DNA from: Ancylobacter amanitiformis
GTDB taxonomy: Bacteria > Pseudomonadota > Alphaproteobacteria > Rhizobiales > Xanthobacteraceae
DNA length: 64,000 bases
Direction: 5' to 3'
NCBI RefSeq assembly: GCF_030814815.1
Contig: NZ_JAUSVR010000006.1
Coordinates: 1 to 64,000 of the forward strand
Positions 28,757 through 44,783 of this stretch are shown here, one piece after another; within the stretch, counting starts at the first letter, position 1, and the number at the start of each line of letters is the position of its first letter. A program made the translations under genes and the position numbers. Below the pieces are notes generated by a model, which did no database searches, had not been told where the DNA came from, and saw only the letters and a list, made by a program, of their open reading frames with translations.

Positions 28757-29263
28757 ATGTCAGTGTTCTCGAAAGACATCAAAACCTTCGACGACCTCTT
28801 CCTGCATACGCTGCAGGACATCTATTACGCGGAGAAAAAAATCTCCAAGGCTCTGCCGACTATGATCGAGAAGGCGAGCAACAAGCAGCTCAAGGCCGAT
28901 TTCAAGCATCATCTCGGCGAGACCGAGAATCATATCAAGCGTGTGGAGAAGGTGTTCGAACTCTACGGCGCCAAGGCCAAGACCACCAAGTGCCCGGCCA
29001 TTGACGGCATTCTCGAGGAGGCCGACGAGGTCGCCGGCGAGGTGGCCGATCCCGAAGTGCTCGACGCCGCGCTGATCGCAGCCGCCCAGGCGGTGGAGCA
29101 TTACGAGATCACCCGCTACGGCACGCTCGCCGCCTGGGCCAAGCAGCTCGACCGCGCCGACTGCGCGCGCGTGCTGGAGGAGAACCTCGCCGAGGAGAGG
29201 AAGGCCGATGCCAAGCTGACCAAGCTGGCGGAATCCAAGATCAATCTGCAGGCCGCCGAATAG
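28757..29263 (+). CDS. DUF892 / YciF-like ferritin-like protein
   Basis: This 168-residue all-helical protein starts after AGGAGG. It has FDDLFLHTLQDIYYAEKKISKALP, with Asp and Glu at ferritin-like ligand positions, HHLGETENHIKRVEKVFELYG, AAAQAVEHYEITRYGTLAAWAKQL and LEENLAEERKADAKLTKLAE. E. coli YciF/YciE relatives are stress-induced rubrerythrin-like proteins; metal binding is likely and the reaction unknown. An EcfG-type promoter upstream places it in the general stress response, as in other Rhizobiales. Confidence 0.92.
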   Translation: MSVFSKDIKTFDDLFLHTLQDIYYAEKKISKALPTMIEKASNKQLKADFKHHLGETENHIKRVEKVFELYGAKAKTTKCPAIDGILEEADEVAGEVADPEVLDAALIAAAQAVEHYEITRYGTLAAWAKQLDRADCARVLEENLAEERKADAKLTKLAESKINLQAAE

Positions 29264-29437
29264 GCTGGCCGGCGGGTGGCCGGTGCCGGTGGCGAGGTCT
29301 CCCCCTCCGCCGGCGCCGGCCTGCAGCCTTTCCGGTGAGCCCCCGCTCATCGGAGGGGCTGCGGAGCCTTGGCGGTACGCCTCGTCGTGAGCGAGGCGCG
29401 CCTCACGCGACACGTTCCATTGCCTGGGAAGGTCGAC

Positions 29438-29644
29438 ATGCCCGCGAAATCGAAAGCCCAGCAGAAAGCCGCCGGAGCGGCGCTCGCCGCCAAGCGTGGC
29501 GAGACGGCATCGAGCGCGCTCAAGGGCGCCTCGAAGCAGATGGCGCGATCCATGAGCGTCGACGAACTGGCCGAGCTTGCCGCCACGCCGCGCAAGGGCA
29601 AGCCCGAGCGCGTCTCCGCCAAGGGCGGCGGGAGCCGTCATTGA
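29438..29644 (+). CDS. DUF3008 small protein
   Basis: The 68-residue protein starts MPAKSKAQQKAAGAALAAKRG, the DUF3008 hallmark, and continues MARSMSVDELAELAATPRKGKPERVS. GGAAGG precedes the ATG. It is basic and probably disordered at the ends. Such proteins are found among stress-responsive genes in Rhizobiales; no biochemical role is known. Its stop overlaps the region of the EcfG promoter for the next gene. Confidence 0.88.
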   Translation: MPAKSKAQQKAAGAALAAKRGETASSALKGASKQMARSMSVDELAELAATPRKGKPERVSAKGGGSRH

Positions 29645-29646
29645 CC

Positions 29647-29671
29647 GGAACGAAGCCGGCCGCGCCACGTT
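29647..29671 (+). promoter_or_regulatory. EcfG-type general stress promoter for the iron permease-family gene
   Basis: GGAAC, 16 nt, CGTT: a perfect match to the EcfG consensus. It starts 3 bp after the DUF3008 stop and lies 25 nt before the next ATG, so the predicted start is near 29679. Confidence 0.8.
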
Positions 29672-29696
29672 GAAGCTCCGCATAGCGGGGGGTCCC

Positions 29697-30182
29697 ATGG
29701 CGACGACACGCAAGCCGGCTTCAACATCGTCTCGCAAATCCCTTTCCAAGCCCTCCGGCGAGACCTCCGGAGACCCCTCCGGCGAGCCCTCCGCGTCCGG
29801 CGGCGGACGACCCAAACGCTCCTTCTTCACCCGCTTCTCGCAATGGGTGTCGACGCAGGCGGGCAAGCCGACGACCTTCATCGGCGCTCTGGGCCTGATC
29901 GTGCTGTGGGGCGCCAGCGGGCCCCTGTTCGGCTTCGGCGATACCTGGCAACTGGTGATCAACACCTCGACCACCATCATCACCTTCCTGATGGTGTTCG
30001 TGATCCAGAACAGCCAGAACCGCGACACCGCCGCCCTGCACATCAAGCTCGACGAACTGATCGCCAGCGGCACGAGCGCCCGGCGGATTCTGCTCGATCT
30101 CGAAGAGTTGGATGAGAGCGCGATCGAGACGATCCGTTCCGAATACGAGGAACTCGCCCGCCGCGCGCGGGAGGGCCGTTAG
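29697..30182 (+). CDS. low-affinity iron permease family protein
   Basis: The 161-residue protein has a Ser/Pro/Gly-rich head with SGETSGDPSGEPS encoded by a 12-bp triplicate (29754-29789), then RFSQWVSTQAGKPTTFIGALGLIVLWGASGPLFGFGDTWQLVINTSTTIITFLMVFVIQNSQNRDTAALHIKLDELI (two membrane segments), the core of PF04120. Bacterial members may not carry iron; the yeast relative Fet4 does. The last 30 residues are acidic-helical. It overlaps the convergent ROK gene stop by 4 bp and has its own EcfG promoter. Confidence 0.88.
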   Translation: MATTRKPASTSSRKSLSKPSGETSGDPSGEPSASGGGRPKRSFFTRFSQWVSTQAGKPTTFIGALGLIVLWGASGPLFGFGDTWQLVINTSTTIITFLMVFVIQNSQNRDTAALHIKLDELIASGTSARRILLDLEELDESAIETIRSEYEELARRAREGR

Positions 30183-31384
30183 CCCTTGTCCTTCTCGCCC
30201 TTGTCTTTCTTGCCCGCTTCCTTGCCGCTCTTGTCTTTCCCAGCCTTCCGCTTGTCGTCATGGCGCTCCCGCGCCGCGGTCTCCTCGGCATTGGGGTGGG
30301 AGCGGTTGGTGAAGCGCGCATTGCCAAGGCCGGTGCCGATGGTGATGACGCCCCAGCGCTCGACATCGCCCATGAAGGGCACCTCGCTCAGGCCCTGAAC
30401 CACCGCGTCATTATGCATGACCAGCGTCGTCTCGCGCCCGCCAATGGCCGGGATCGCCTCCCATAGCGCGGTCGGCAGGTTGAAACGGCGGCTCTCCCAG
30501 TTGCCCGGCAGGTTCTGCGCGCCGGTCTCGATGGCGCCGTCCGGGGCGATCGCGCCGGGGCAGCCGATGCCGATGAAGGGGGCGAGGTTGAAGCCCTGCG
30601 CCTCGGCCTGCTCAATGAGCGTGCCCAGCATGCCGGCCAGCCGGTCGACCGCCGCGTCGCGGGTCAGCTTTTCCTCCGCGTGACGCCACAGCTCCATTGC
30701 GGCGACGCGCGCCTTGGAGAGGTCCTCCGCCTTGTCGAGGTTGAGCTTGACGATGCCGGCGCGAATATTGGTGCCGCCGATATCCACCGCGAGAATGTGG
30801 TCGAAGCTGGCGAACATCCAGCTCGGCGCGAGATGGACGGCACCGATCAGCCCCGCCTCGTCGGGCTCGGCGCGGATGGGCACCAGTTCGATCTCGATGC
30901 CGTCGGCGCGGGCGATCAGTTCGGCGCGGGCGATGGCGATCTCGGCGAAGCGCCCCCCTTTCAGCCCGCCGCCCACCACGATGCGCTGGGTGTCGCGCCA
31001 TTCCCGGGTGCGCAGCAGGCGGCGGATGACGACGATGAGTTCGCTGGCATAGTCCTCCACGGCACTGAAGATCAGCGCCTGTTCGTGCGGCTTGCCCTCG
31101 ACGAGCAGTTCGTCCAGCAGCGTCTTCGAAAGGTCCGCGGTCGGCGTGTCGCCCAGCGCCTTGGCGGGACGGCGGGCGAGGTTGCGCCAGCGGTCGAGTA
31201 TATCGAAGAAGGCGGCGCGGCGGGCGCGGTCGCCGACGAAGCCGTCCTCCTCGCGGATCTGGCTGTTGCAGGCGTCGACGCTCACGGCCGCCAGCACCGG
31301 CGCGCCGTGCACTGTGACGGCGGGCGCGGCGGGCTCGTTTCGCGATCTGCGGTCGGCGTCGGTCTGCGGGCGGGAGGAGGCCAT
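30179..31384 (-). CDS. ROK-family kinase-like protein with permuted motif order
   Basis: The 401-residue protein contains all ROK kinase landmarks but in rotated order. The C-lobe elements come first: RIVVGGGLKGGRF (134-146) and DEAGLIGAVHLAP (175-187). The N-lobe follows: AVDIGGTNIRAGIV (199-212), GIGCPGAI (272-279), HNDAVVQGLSE with candidate catalytic Asp326, and ITIGTGLGNA (347-356). The canonical zinc motif is absent. The last 27 residues are Lys/Asp/Glu-rich (GKDKSGKEAGKKDKGEKDKG). It is likely a sugar kinase (glucokinase-like) or derived regulator. An EcfG promoter sits 39 bp before the start. Confidence 0.85.
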   Translation of the reverse strand: MASSRPQTDADRRSRNEPAAPAVTVHGAPVLAAVSVDACNSQIREEDGFVGDRARRAAFFDILDRWRNLARRPAKALGDTPTADLSKTLLDELLVEGKPHEQALIFSAVEDYASELIVVIRRLLRTREWRDTQRIVVGGGLKGGRFAEIAIARAELIARADGIEIELVPIRAEPDEAGLIGAVHLAPSWMFASFDHILAVDIGGTNIRAGIVKLNLDKAEDLSKARVAAMELWRHAEEKLTRDAAVDRLAGMLGTLIEQAEAQGFNLAPFIGIGCPGAIAPDGAIETGAQNLPGNWESRRFNLPTALWEAIPAIGGRETTLVMHNDAVVQGLSEVPFMGDVERWGVITIGTGLGNARFTNRSHPNAEETAARERHDDKRKAGKDKSGKEAGKKDKGEKDKG

Positions 31385-31422: not shown

Positions 31423-31448
31423 AACGACGGAGGCCGCCCGTGCGTTCC
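31423..31448 (-). promoter_or_regulatory. EcfG-type general stress promoter for the ROK-family gene
   Basis: On the minus strand GGAAC, 17 nt, CGTT: a perfect consensus match. It lies 39 bp before the ROK start codon, giving a short leader of about 30 nt. Confidence 0.8.
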
Positions 31449-31556: not shown

Positions 31557-32168
31557 ATGAAGCGCGAAAGTTCCACCTTCGACGTGCCGGCCGAGCTGCC
31601 CGTCCTGCGGCGCTATGCGCGCGCGCTGACGCGCGGCGACGACGGCGACGCGGAAGATCTGGTGCATGATGCGCTGGTGCGTGCCTATGAGCGCCGCGGC
31701 ACCTTCCAGGACGAGCGGACCGTGCCCGGCCGGGCCGGCGGCGGCGCCTCCGGCAACCGGCTGCGCGGCTGGCTGCTCTCCATCCTGCACAATGTGTTCG
31801 TCGACCGGCGCCGCTCGCGCCATGCCGAGCAGCGCCGCGAGGCGCAGGCGGTGGAACTGGCCGAGGCCGTCATGCCGCCCGCGCAGGAGCATCACCTGCG
31901 CCTGTCGCAGGTGCGCGAGGCCTTCATGGGCCTGCCGGAGGAACAGCGCGCCGCGCTGCATCTCGTGAGCATCGAGGGGCTCGGCTATGCCGAGGCCGCC
32001 GCCGCGCTCGGCATTCCGCAGGGCACGCTGATGTCCCGGCTTGCGCGCGCCCGGGCGGCGCTGCGCGCGCTCGACGAAGGCACGGCCGAGGCCCGCGCCG
32101 CCCGCCTCGCGGCCCCGTCCGCTTCTCATCTTCGCATCGTAGGAGGTCCGGATGACCCGACCCGTTGA
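31557..32168 (+). CDS. ECF-type RNA polymerase sigma factor
   Basis: The 203-residue protein has region 2 (LPVLRRYARALTRGDDGDAEDLVHDALVRAYERRGTF, with DAEDLVHD as region 2.2) and region 4 (FMGLPEEQRAALHLVSIEGLGYAEAAAALGIPQGTLMSRLARARAAL). An unusual Gly-rich insertion (PGRAGGGASGN) lies between 2.3 and 2.4. No ribosome binding site precedes the ATG, and a promoter-like element ends 7 nt before it. It overlaps the anti-sigma gene by 17 bp. It is not the PhyR/NepR-associated EcfG, whose gene is not in this window. Confidence 0.92.
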   Translation: MKRESSTFDVPAELPVLRRYARALTRGDDGDAEDLVHDALVRAYERRGTFQDERTVPGRAGGGASGNRLRGWLLSILHNVFVDRRRSRHAEQRREAQAVELAEAVMPPAQEHHLRLSQVREAFMGLPEEQRAALHLVSIEGLGYAEAAAALGIPQGTLMSRLARARAALRALDEGTAEARAARLAAPSASHLRIVGGPDDPTR

Positions 32169-32940
32169 TCCCGTCTCCGACGACGACCTGCAGGCCTATG
32201 TCGACGACGCGCTCCCCGTGGAGCGGCGTATCGATGTCGAGGCCCATCTCAGCGCCAACCCCACGGAAGCCTCGCGGGTGATGGCGGATCTGCGCATCCG
32301 CGACGAGCTGCGCCTCGCGCTGGCCGATGCCCCGCGCTCGGTGATGAACGCCCCGGCGCGGGTGGCGACGGTGGAGGCGGCGCGCCGGCTGGAGCGCGCG
32401 CTCTCGCGCGAGAGCTGGATGCGCCCGGTGCGCATCGCCGCCTCGGTGGCGCTGCTGCTGGGCGCCGGCTGGCTCGCCCATGCCCAGTTCGGTCCGCTCG
32501 GGGTCAGCCGCGTCGTCGCCTCGGACCTGCCGCCGGCCTATCTGGAGGAAGCGGTGCGCGCCCACCGCACGGCGGAGCTGCGCGCCGGGCTGGGCGCCCC
32601 GGTCGGTCCCGCCGGCTACCAACCGGCGGATATCCGCGCCGCGACCGCCATCATCATGCCCTCCCTGCCGGAGGACTGGCAGGTGGCGGATGTGCAGATC
32701 TTCCCCTCGGCTTTCGGCCCCAGCGTCGAAATGTCGGTGAAGACCAGGGATTTCGGCGCGGTGTCGCTGTTCGCCGTCCGTCCGGGCAGTTTCGACGTGG
32801 TGCCGGCGACCAGCGTGCCGAAGGACGGGCTCAATGCCGCCTACTGGCAGGTGGGCGAGGTGGCCTATGCGCTCGTGGCCCATGGCGACGCGCGCGAACT
32901 CGACCGCGCCGCCGCCGGGCTGGCGCGCTCGCTCTACTAG
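32152..32940 (+). CDS. membrane anti-sigma factor
   Basis: The 262-residue protein starts within the sigma gene after AGGAGG. The cytoplasmic N-domain (VSDDDLQAYVDDALPVERRIDVEAHLSANP, then VMADLRIRDELRLAL) is the RsiW/COG5662-type anti-sigma domain but lacks the zinc HX3CX2C. A single membrane helix spans about 93-112 (VRIAASVALLLGAGWLAHAQF). The periplasmic domain of about 150 residues would sense a signal. It holds the ECF sigma inactive until released by the signal. Confidence 0.88.
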   Translation: MTRPVDPVSDDDLQAYVDDALPVERRIDVEAHLSANPTEASRVMADLRIRDELRLALADAPRSVMNAPARVATVEAARRLERALSRESWMRPVRIAASVALLLGAGWLAHAQFGPLGVSRVVASDLPPAYLEEAVRAHRTAELRAGLGAPVGPAGYQPADIRAATAIIMPSLPEDWQVADVQIFPSAFGPSVEMSVKTRDFGAVSLFAVRPGSFDVVPATSVPKDGLNAAYWQVGEVAYALVAHGDARELDRAAAGLARSLY

Positions 32941-43832: not shown

Positions 43833-44720
43833 TCAGATCGGCCCGAAGGCGCCGCGCGGCACGTCGGGGCCTTGCGTCAGCGCGACGCGCAGCTTTTCCA
43901 GCGCCCGGCTTTCGATCTGCCGCACCCGCTCCTTGGAGATGCCGAGCCGTGCGCCGAGCGTTTCCAGCGTCTCGCTCTCCTCGTTCAGGCGGCGGGCCTT
44001 GATGATGCGGATCTCGCGCTCGTTCAGCGCCGCCAGCGCGCGCCACAGCCAGCGCCGCCGCCGCTCGCCGTCGATTTCCATCGAGGCCTGCTCGTCGGGC
44101 AGCGGATCGGCGGCGGCGAGCTGGTCGAGCCGGGCGCCTCCATCTTCCTCGCCGGCCTGAAGCGGGGCGTTGAGCGACAGGTCGGGCCCGCTGAGCCGGG
44201 CATCCATGCGCGCCACCTCGACCGGGTTCACGCCGAGGCTACGGGCGATGGCGCCGTGCATCGCCTCGCGCGGGGGCGGTGTGGCGCCGCCGGCGCGCTC
44301 GAGCCGGGTCCGCATGCGGCGCAGGTTGAAGAACAGCGCCTTCTGGCCGGAGGAGGTTCCCCCGCGCACGATCGACCAGTTGCGCAGCACGTAATCCTGA
44401 ATCGCCGCGCGGATCCACCAGGTGGCATAGGTGGAGAAGCGCACGTCATGGGCGGTCTGGAACCGCGCGGCGGCTTCCAGCAGGCCGATATTGGCCTCCT
44501 GCACAAGGTCCGACATGGGCAGGCCATAGCTGCGGAAGCGGCGGGCGATGGCGATGGCGAGGCGCATATGCGCATGCACCAGCTGGTGCATCGCGTGCTC
44601 GTCGCGCTGCTCGGTCCAGCGGCGGGCGAGCCCGTATTCCTCCTCGCGCCCCAGCAGGGGCGCCTTCATCGCGTCCCGCACCAGGACAATGTGACGCTCG
44701 GCCCTGTCGCTCATGCGCAT
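43833..44720 (-). CDS. rpoH2: RNA polymerase sigma-32 family factor, second RpoH type
   Basis: The 295-residue sigma70-family protein has region 2 (RLAIAIARRFRSYGLPMSDLVQEANIGLLEAAARFQTAHDVRFSTYATWWIRAAIQDYVLRNWSIVR), the RpoH box QKALFFNLRR (126-135), and region 4 (LNEREIRIIKARRLNEESETLETLGARLGISKERVRQIESRALEKLRVAL). Alphaproteobacterial RpoH2 copes with oxidative or general stress. A perfect EcfG-type promoter 38 bp upstream (44758-44783) places it in the general stress cascade. Two in-frame ATGs exist (44720, 44714). Confidence 0.93.
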   Translation of the reverse strand: MRMSDRAERHIVLVRDAMKAPLLGREEEYGLARRWTEQRDEHAMHQLVHAHMRLAIAIARRFRSYGLPMSDLVQEANIGLLEAAARFQTAHDVRFSTYATWWIRAAIQDYVLRNWSIVRGGTSSGQKALFFNLRRMRTRLERAGGATPPPREAMHGAIARSLGVNPVEVARMDARLSGPDLSLNAPLQAGEEDGGARLDQLAAADPLPDEQASMEIDGERRRRWLWRALAALNEREIRIIKARRLNEESETLETLGARLGISKERVRQIESRALEKLRVALTQGPDVPRGAFGPI

Positions 44721-44757: not shown

Positions 44758-44783
44758 AACGCGACCGGGCAAAGGATGGTTCC
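44758..44783 (-). promoter_or_regulatory. EcfG-type general stress promoter for rpoH2
   Basis: On the minus strand GGAAC, 17 nt, CGTT: a perfect consensus match, 38 bp before the rpoH2 ATG, with predicted start near 44750. Confidence 0.85.

Follow-up and report, generated by a model that had tools for sequence, protein, structure and literature searches.

The stretch of DNA studied here (the window) comprises 64,000 nucleotides of the Ancylobacter amanitiformis genome (contig NZ_JAUSVR010000006.1, positions 1–64,000) and carries on its minus strand a gene for a circularly permuted ROK-type kinase of 401 residues (30179–31384, with the ATG start at 31384 and the stop codon at 30179–30181). The conserved core, residues 21–361 (30302–31324, minus strand like all features of the gene), was defined from 93 distinct homologue rows. 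Its first half, residues 25–195 (30800–31312), is the equivalent of the ROK C-lobe, now N-terminal. It contains GGG at residues 138–140 (30965–30973), aligned with IVLGGG of ROK proteins, which we take to be the adenosine-binding glycines by analogy with ROK and other ASKHA proteins. GLIGA at residues 178–182 (30839–30853) is the equivalent of the C-terminal aGxxGAA segment of ROK, as judged from conservation and profile alignment. The second half, residues 196–361 (30302–30799), corresponds to the ROK N-lobe. Here the homologue alignment places the phosphate-1 motif DIGGTN at residues 201–206 (30767–30784), followed by N325–D326 (30407–30412), the latter presumably the catalytic aspartate as we assume for ROK kinases, and by the phosphate-2 motif GTGLG at residues 350–354 (30323–30337), near the C-terminal end of the core. 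The initial annotation had reported VVGGG (136–140), DEAGLIGA (175–182), DIGGTN (201–206) and ITIGTGLG (347–354), all of which were found at the same positions in the translation, as well as GIGCPG and HND, located at 272–277 and 324–326.

The old C-terminal and N-terminal ends are joined by a new linker, residues 184–196 (HLAPSWMFASFDH; 30797–30835), in which P187 and W189 are invariant, and the junction reads GLIGA-V-HLAPSWMFASFDH-ILAVDIGGTN. The new chain ends are situated past the phosphate-2 hairpin (GTGLGNARFTNR). The permuted family is marked by its conserved HLAPSW linker and by the signatures GAQNLPGNWES / GTGLGNARFTNR. Beyond the core, the homologue alignment leaves a non-conserved Lys-rich tail (residues 362–401; 30182–30301).

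Homologues were collected from a genome scan, in which 399 of 411 candidate stretches were confirmed and the best 80 kept, and from loci in related genomes, which together gave 111 loci or 93 distinct rows. In all 93 rows, residues ∼21–361 form one open frame with the halves in the same order, and the sequence beyond residue 361 is unconserved. Among 67 aligned rows 56 positions are invariant. They include G138–G140, G181, D201, G203–G204, N206, N325, D326 and G350–N355 (GTGLGN), so that the ROK motif set (phosphate-1, catalytic ND, phosphate-2 and adenosine) is present in 67/67 rows. The ratio of nonsynonymous to synonymous substitution rates (dN/dS) was 0.09 against locus L033 (340 codons), 0.27 against L034 and 0.23 against L035. 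Because of the value of 0.09 against L033, the kinase gene is under purifying selection.

The Pfam ROK family (PF00480) matches residues 198–360 only, over profile positions 2–141 of 294 (E 3.6e-7), and this partial match scores 30.4 bits against a gathering cut-off of 22.9. For a profile-profile comparison we built a ROK profile from open reading frames (ORFs) matching Pfam ROK in related genomes, keeping 20 of 31 aligned stretches and dropping the 11 of ≤200 residues. The first half of the family (21–195) aligned to ROK 197–293 (E 1.7e-6) and the second half to ROK 1–133 (E 1.1e-9), the reverse of the order N-lobe then C-lobe seen in the ROK family. This supports the circular permutation proposed in the initial annotation. 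The similarity to ROK C-termini that had been expected around residues 100–190 is indeed there, as residues 96–195 carry the C-lobe signal of the first half (E 6.3e-7). The whole unrotated profile aligned only over ROK 1–133, while the rotated profile aligned over 1–293 (E 1.7e-13). The best cut point of 22 (every 19th residue plus 195–198) was 197, with a score of 103.3 versus 65.6 unrotated. The N-half profile scored 47.3 against ROK, compared with a maximum of 20.1 in 100 column shuffles and 16.3 for the reversed profile. Given this margin over the shuffles and the 56 invariant positions in 67 homologues, the lobe order is not a chance product.

The predicted models and structure searches gave a two-lobe ASKHA fold with ROK proteins among the nearest structures. 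Since searches with the whole model aligned mainly the N-lobe, as expected of a sequential alignment, the N-half was also modelled separately. In the comparison with glucokinase structures suggested in the initial annotation, the two halves match complementary parts of one structure, 3vgk. The first 30 Foldseek rows for the N-half model were all sugar kinases or ROK repressors, although none of its E values was below 0.001.

Two other features of the initial annotation hold for the window protein without characterizing the family. The Lys/Asp/Glu-rich C-terminus is present, but the median tail is 9 residues among the 78 of 93 rows with a locatable end motif, and we therefore rejected a Lys-rich tail as a family trait. 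Tails of at least 25 residues occur in 13 of these rows, and all 13 tails are at least 25% Lys/Arg. The zinc-binding segment, for which we assume the ROK signature CxCGxxGCxE, is missing as had been noted, and a pattern search found it in 0/93 permuted rows. This absence carries little information, as only 8 of the 31 canonical-order ROK ORFs have the pattern and the other 23 lack it, which weakens zinc loss as a hallmark of the permuted family.

Upstream of the gene, 38 bp before its ATG, lies an EcfG-type promoter motif, GGAAC-N17-CGTT (31423–31448, minus strand), which is a new observation for the permuted kinase. The spacing and position agree with the EcfG/RpoE2 pattern of GGAAC-N16/17-CGTT close upstream of a start codon. 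The same type of motif marks alphaproteobacterial EcfG regulons according to published EcfG work, which gives GGAAC-N16-CGTT for Rhizobium etli (PMC3892343, PMC4167512) and GGAAC-N17–20-GTT for Sphingomonas (PMC6599016). The term ROK is absent from the main texts of these three papers and of PMC8092242. We counted the strict motif (N16–17) over 330 bp leading up to the residue-26 codon in 119 of 140 loci, after dropping repeats and short flanks. It was found upstream of 23/28 near homologues (≥61% identity) and 18/91 far homologues. Some repetition remains, with two motif strings present twice among the near homologues and one present twice among the far ones. In the controls, the motif occurred in 49 of 4800 background windows (∼1%, which gives an expectation of 0.93 for the 91 far homologues), on the opposite strand in 4/91 and as five scrambled motifs in 0–1/91. 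The binomial p value of 3e-18 overstates independence, as the rows are related to one another and two of them, L178 and L179, are strains of a single species. From this sequence pattern, the kinase gene is probably transcribed by a general-stress sigma factor of the EcfG/RpoE2 type.

Taken together, we consider it likely that the gene encodes a circularly permuted ROK-type ASKHA sugar kinase, probably transcribed by EcfG/RpoE2, that would make hexose-6-phosphate under stress. With the conserved linker (HLAPSW...) fusing the old N- and C-ends, and with the new ends past the phosphate-2 hairpin, the C-lobe with the adenosine site would be synthesized first and the N-lobe with phosphate-1 and the catalytic Asp second. 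The two lobes would then rebuild the usual cleft, in which D326 would act as the base for transfer of the γ-phosphate of ATP to a hexose. Most likely, then, the protein is a stress-induced hexose kinase that uses ATP and may supply trehalose synthesis. Its likely job would be to provide hexose-6-phosphate when cells face osmotic stress or desiccation, such as glucose-6-phosphate for trehalose synthesis by OtsA and OtsB or for other solutes. In Bradyrhizobium diazoefficiens the general stress response controls trehalose synthesis by OtsA/OtsB, a consumer of glucose-6-phosphate (PMC8092242). An otsB gene is divergent from and adjacent to the kinase gene in three of seven plasmid regions (Rhizobium and Shinella) and in locus L157; it was not seen in three other plasmid regions, and the remaining one is unannotated. 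In five Hyphomicrobium loci otsB is found within 4 kb of the kinase gene. A gene for a NAGGN osmoprotectant peptidase lies near the kinase gene in Sinorhizobium meliloti RCAM1750.

Several observations weigh against this interpretation. With respect to the permutation, residues 21–90 alone gave no sequence match to the ROK profile and are supported by the predicted model only. In the N-half model the last 21 residues, including the GLIGA segment, mostly have a predicted local distance difference test (pLDDT) score below 50. The best Foldseek E for the N-half model was 0.035, with none <0.001. Rotating single sequences brought no Pfam gain (rotated versus unrotated 31.7 versus 30.4 for the window protein, 42.5 versus 41.7 for L097 and 45.6 versus 50.5 for L083), and the homologues, ranked by similarity to a permuted query, speak to the conservation of the order and not to the rarity of the permutation. 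With respect to function, ExGH, which we take to be the sugar-binding ROK motif, occurs in 2/93 permuted rows (L057 and L097, not the window protein) compared with 13/31 canonical-order ROK ORFs and 8/8 of the nearest cousins (L164–L171). This rarity points to a probable change in sugar recognition, and glucose may not be the substrate. In 73/91 far homologues the upstream region had no exact match to the EcfG motif, otsB adjacency was seen in two lineages only, and many distant kinase loci have no shared neighbour cluster. Finally, the same genome also encodes an ordinary glucokinase (PF02685). It has one trehalose-phosphatase gene, located away from the kinase gene; these two genes fit a stress-specific extra kinase without proving it.

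The weak results with single sequences do not decide the question of permutation, as the C-lobe is clear only in the profile-profile comparison and the claim is independent of them. Rotated single sequences gave no single continuous Pfam or PDB match, and the best stretch remained the N-lobe. A second weak Pfam stretch appeared in two of three rotated sequences and likewise in both unrotated homologues compared, and a PDB search with rotated L083 matched N-lobes again with the second stretch at noise level.

Among the alternatives, a permuted kinase with another substrate or donor is possible, though we do not favour it: it could be a glucomannokinase that uses polyphosphate or ATP, or could act on a compatible-solute sugar or polyol instead of glucose. 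In the PDB, the single sequence matched best the polyphosphate/ATP-glucomannokinase 1woq (E 6e-4), which has the normal lobe order and is matched over its chain residues 14–184 of 267, i.e., the N-lobe and slightly more. The best NCBIfam match of the window protein is polyphosphate--glucose phosphotransferase (NF045942), at 25.5 bits far below the equivalog cut-off of 250, and all matches in this search were weak and none above cut-off. When translations were read by eye, genes for polyol dehydrogenases, a PfkB kinase and ABC-transporter ATPases were found within 5 kb in six Ancylobacter-group loci. It is unlikely that the permuted fold no longer phosphorylates sugar and instead binds sugar or ATP to sense stress or regulate the response, comparable to the sensing role that the fold has in ROK repressors. 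The near absence of ExGH, the weak NCBIfam matches and the lack of a common gene cluster at most loci would fit such a sensor, but D201, N325, D326, GTGLG and GGG are invariant in the 67 rows and a pure binder would not need them; nor is there a DNA-binding domain, as Pfam finds only ROK (198–360) and, on its border, a Hexokinase_1 match below threshold (197–228). That two half-genes of separate ASKHA families were fused, or that the order arose as an artefact of assembly, is very improbable. All 93 distinct rows, which come from many genera, have the identical single open frame, the two halves match parts of one ROK profile that complement each other, as they do in 3vgk, and a second N-lobe copy is absent in all 111 ORFs (0/111). 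When these ORFs were searched for tandem-duplication intermediates with a second copy of either lobe, two C-lobe matches were seen in L029 and in L044, which would fit an insertion.

The permuted ROK-type kinase shares with ROK sugar kinases (PF00480; e.g., the Streptomyces griseus ROK glucokinase 3vgk and the human ManNAc kinase 2yhy) the ASKHA fold, the phosphate-1, phosphate-2 and adenosine motifs and the catalytic ND. The N-lobe sequence is above the Pfam cut-off and both lobes are shared in predicted structure. It differs in the swapped lobe order, the missing zinc motif, the near absence of ExGH and its own linker and signatures. Based on the reverse lobe order and the missing zinc and ExGH patterns (themselves found in only part of the canonical-order ORFs), we file the protein as a putative permuted ROK-derived lineage and not as a classical ROK member. 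The best-scoring unpermuted relatives among the compared ORFs are L164–L171, canonical-order ROK proteins from the same phylum (second-half hhalign E 1.7e-15). They have the ILAxDIGGTN, NLP and GTGxG motifs in common with the permuted kinase, but unlike it have the normal order, the zinc motif (8/8) and ExGH (8/8). GFxGDRASxxAF (residues 48–59) resembles GCLEAYASATAV of L164–L171, a suggestion made by eye only. These relatives come from genomes of about 1–3 Mb.

Matches were found in 34/61 related genomes, including 29/30 of the same genus. Within the genus, genome G021 has only a 59-residue match (G021:C8:375328–375510) and G012 has none, and the gene may therefore be dispensable. In a phylum-wide sample, 22/398 genomes had a full-length match (24 places). 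A further 35 had a weak match over profile positions 160–336 only, and the eight inspected were unpermuted. The scan record titles are mostly from Alphaproteobacteria, with a few gammaproteobacterial and other names. Matches occur in 206 plasmid records (203 over ≥80% of the query), the majority of them from Rhizobium (111) and Sinorhizobium (79). Annotated homologues exist, as the initial annotation had supposed: the matches listed are mostly called "ROK family protein", otherwise "glucokinase" or "hypothetical protein", or are unlabelled, and one partial plasmid match among them is annotated as a response regulator. Such labels conceal the rearrangement. The permuted kinase is also carried by pSymB of S. 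meliloti 1021 (477074–478129), where the record lists no gene in that region.

We lean towards the view that a natural ROK/ASKHA permutation arose and then became established across Alphaproteobacteria, and in some other Pseudomonadota, as a hexose kinase dedicated to general stress, with an altered sugar site lacking zinc and ExGH motifs and the adenosine half made before the catalytic half. To our knowledge, no natural circular permutation of ROK kinases has been described, and none of the titles and abstracts listed in searches of the open-access literature concerns a permuted ROK kinase. The one paper in which "circularly permuted" and "ROK family" both appear, PMC7701253, applies them to two different proteins. 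Many soil and root-nodule bacteria have kept the swapped form, which the general stress response appears to induce, suggesting an overlooked metabolic step in this response in Alphaproteobacteria. It is conserved in 399 genome stretches, and the presence in the model symbiont S. meliloti 1021 opens it to ordinary genetics. The permuted kinase also offers a direct test of whether, in the actin/hexokinase superfamily, folding and hinge closure depend on lobe order.

Tail-to-tail with the kinase gene lies a gene for a low-affinity iron permease (PF04120), with the ORF listed at 29577–30182 (plus strand). An in-frame ATG at 29697 is likely the true start of the permease gene, and a second EcfG-like motif (29647–29671, plus strand) precedes this ATG by 25 bp. 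Beyond the permease gene are genes for DUF892 (PF05974) and DUF3008 (PF11450) proteins (28757–29644, plus strand). Divergent from the kinase gene (31557–32940, plus strand) are a gene for a sigma factor of the extracytoplasmic function type and an overlapping possible anti-sigma gene (zf-HC2 below cut-off). A conserved operon was rejected, as the neighbours differ across distant relatives. DUF892 recurs near the kinase gene in 31 of 137 loci, a set with some redundancy; most of the 31 are Ancylobacter loci, and others belong to Hyphomicrobium and Bradyrhizobium. A third EcfG-like motif (44758–44783, minus strand) lies 37 bp upstream of an ORF (43833–44720, minus strand) labelled RpoH-like sigma factor from reading of its translation. 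The window thus contains three EcfG-like motifs versus 0.55 expected, and at least three were found in 2/100 shuffles.
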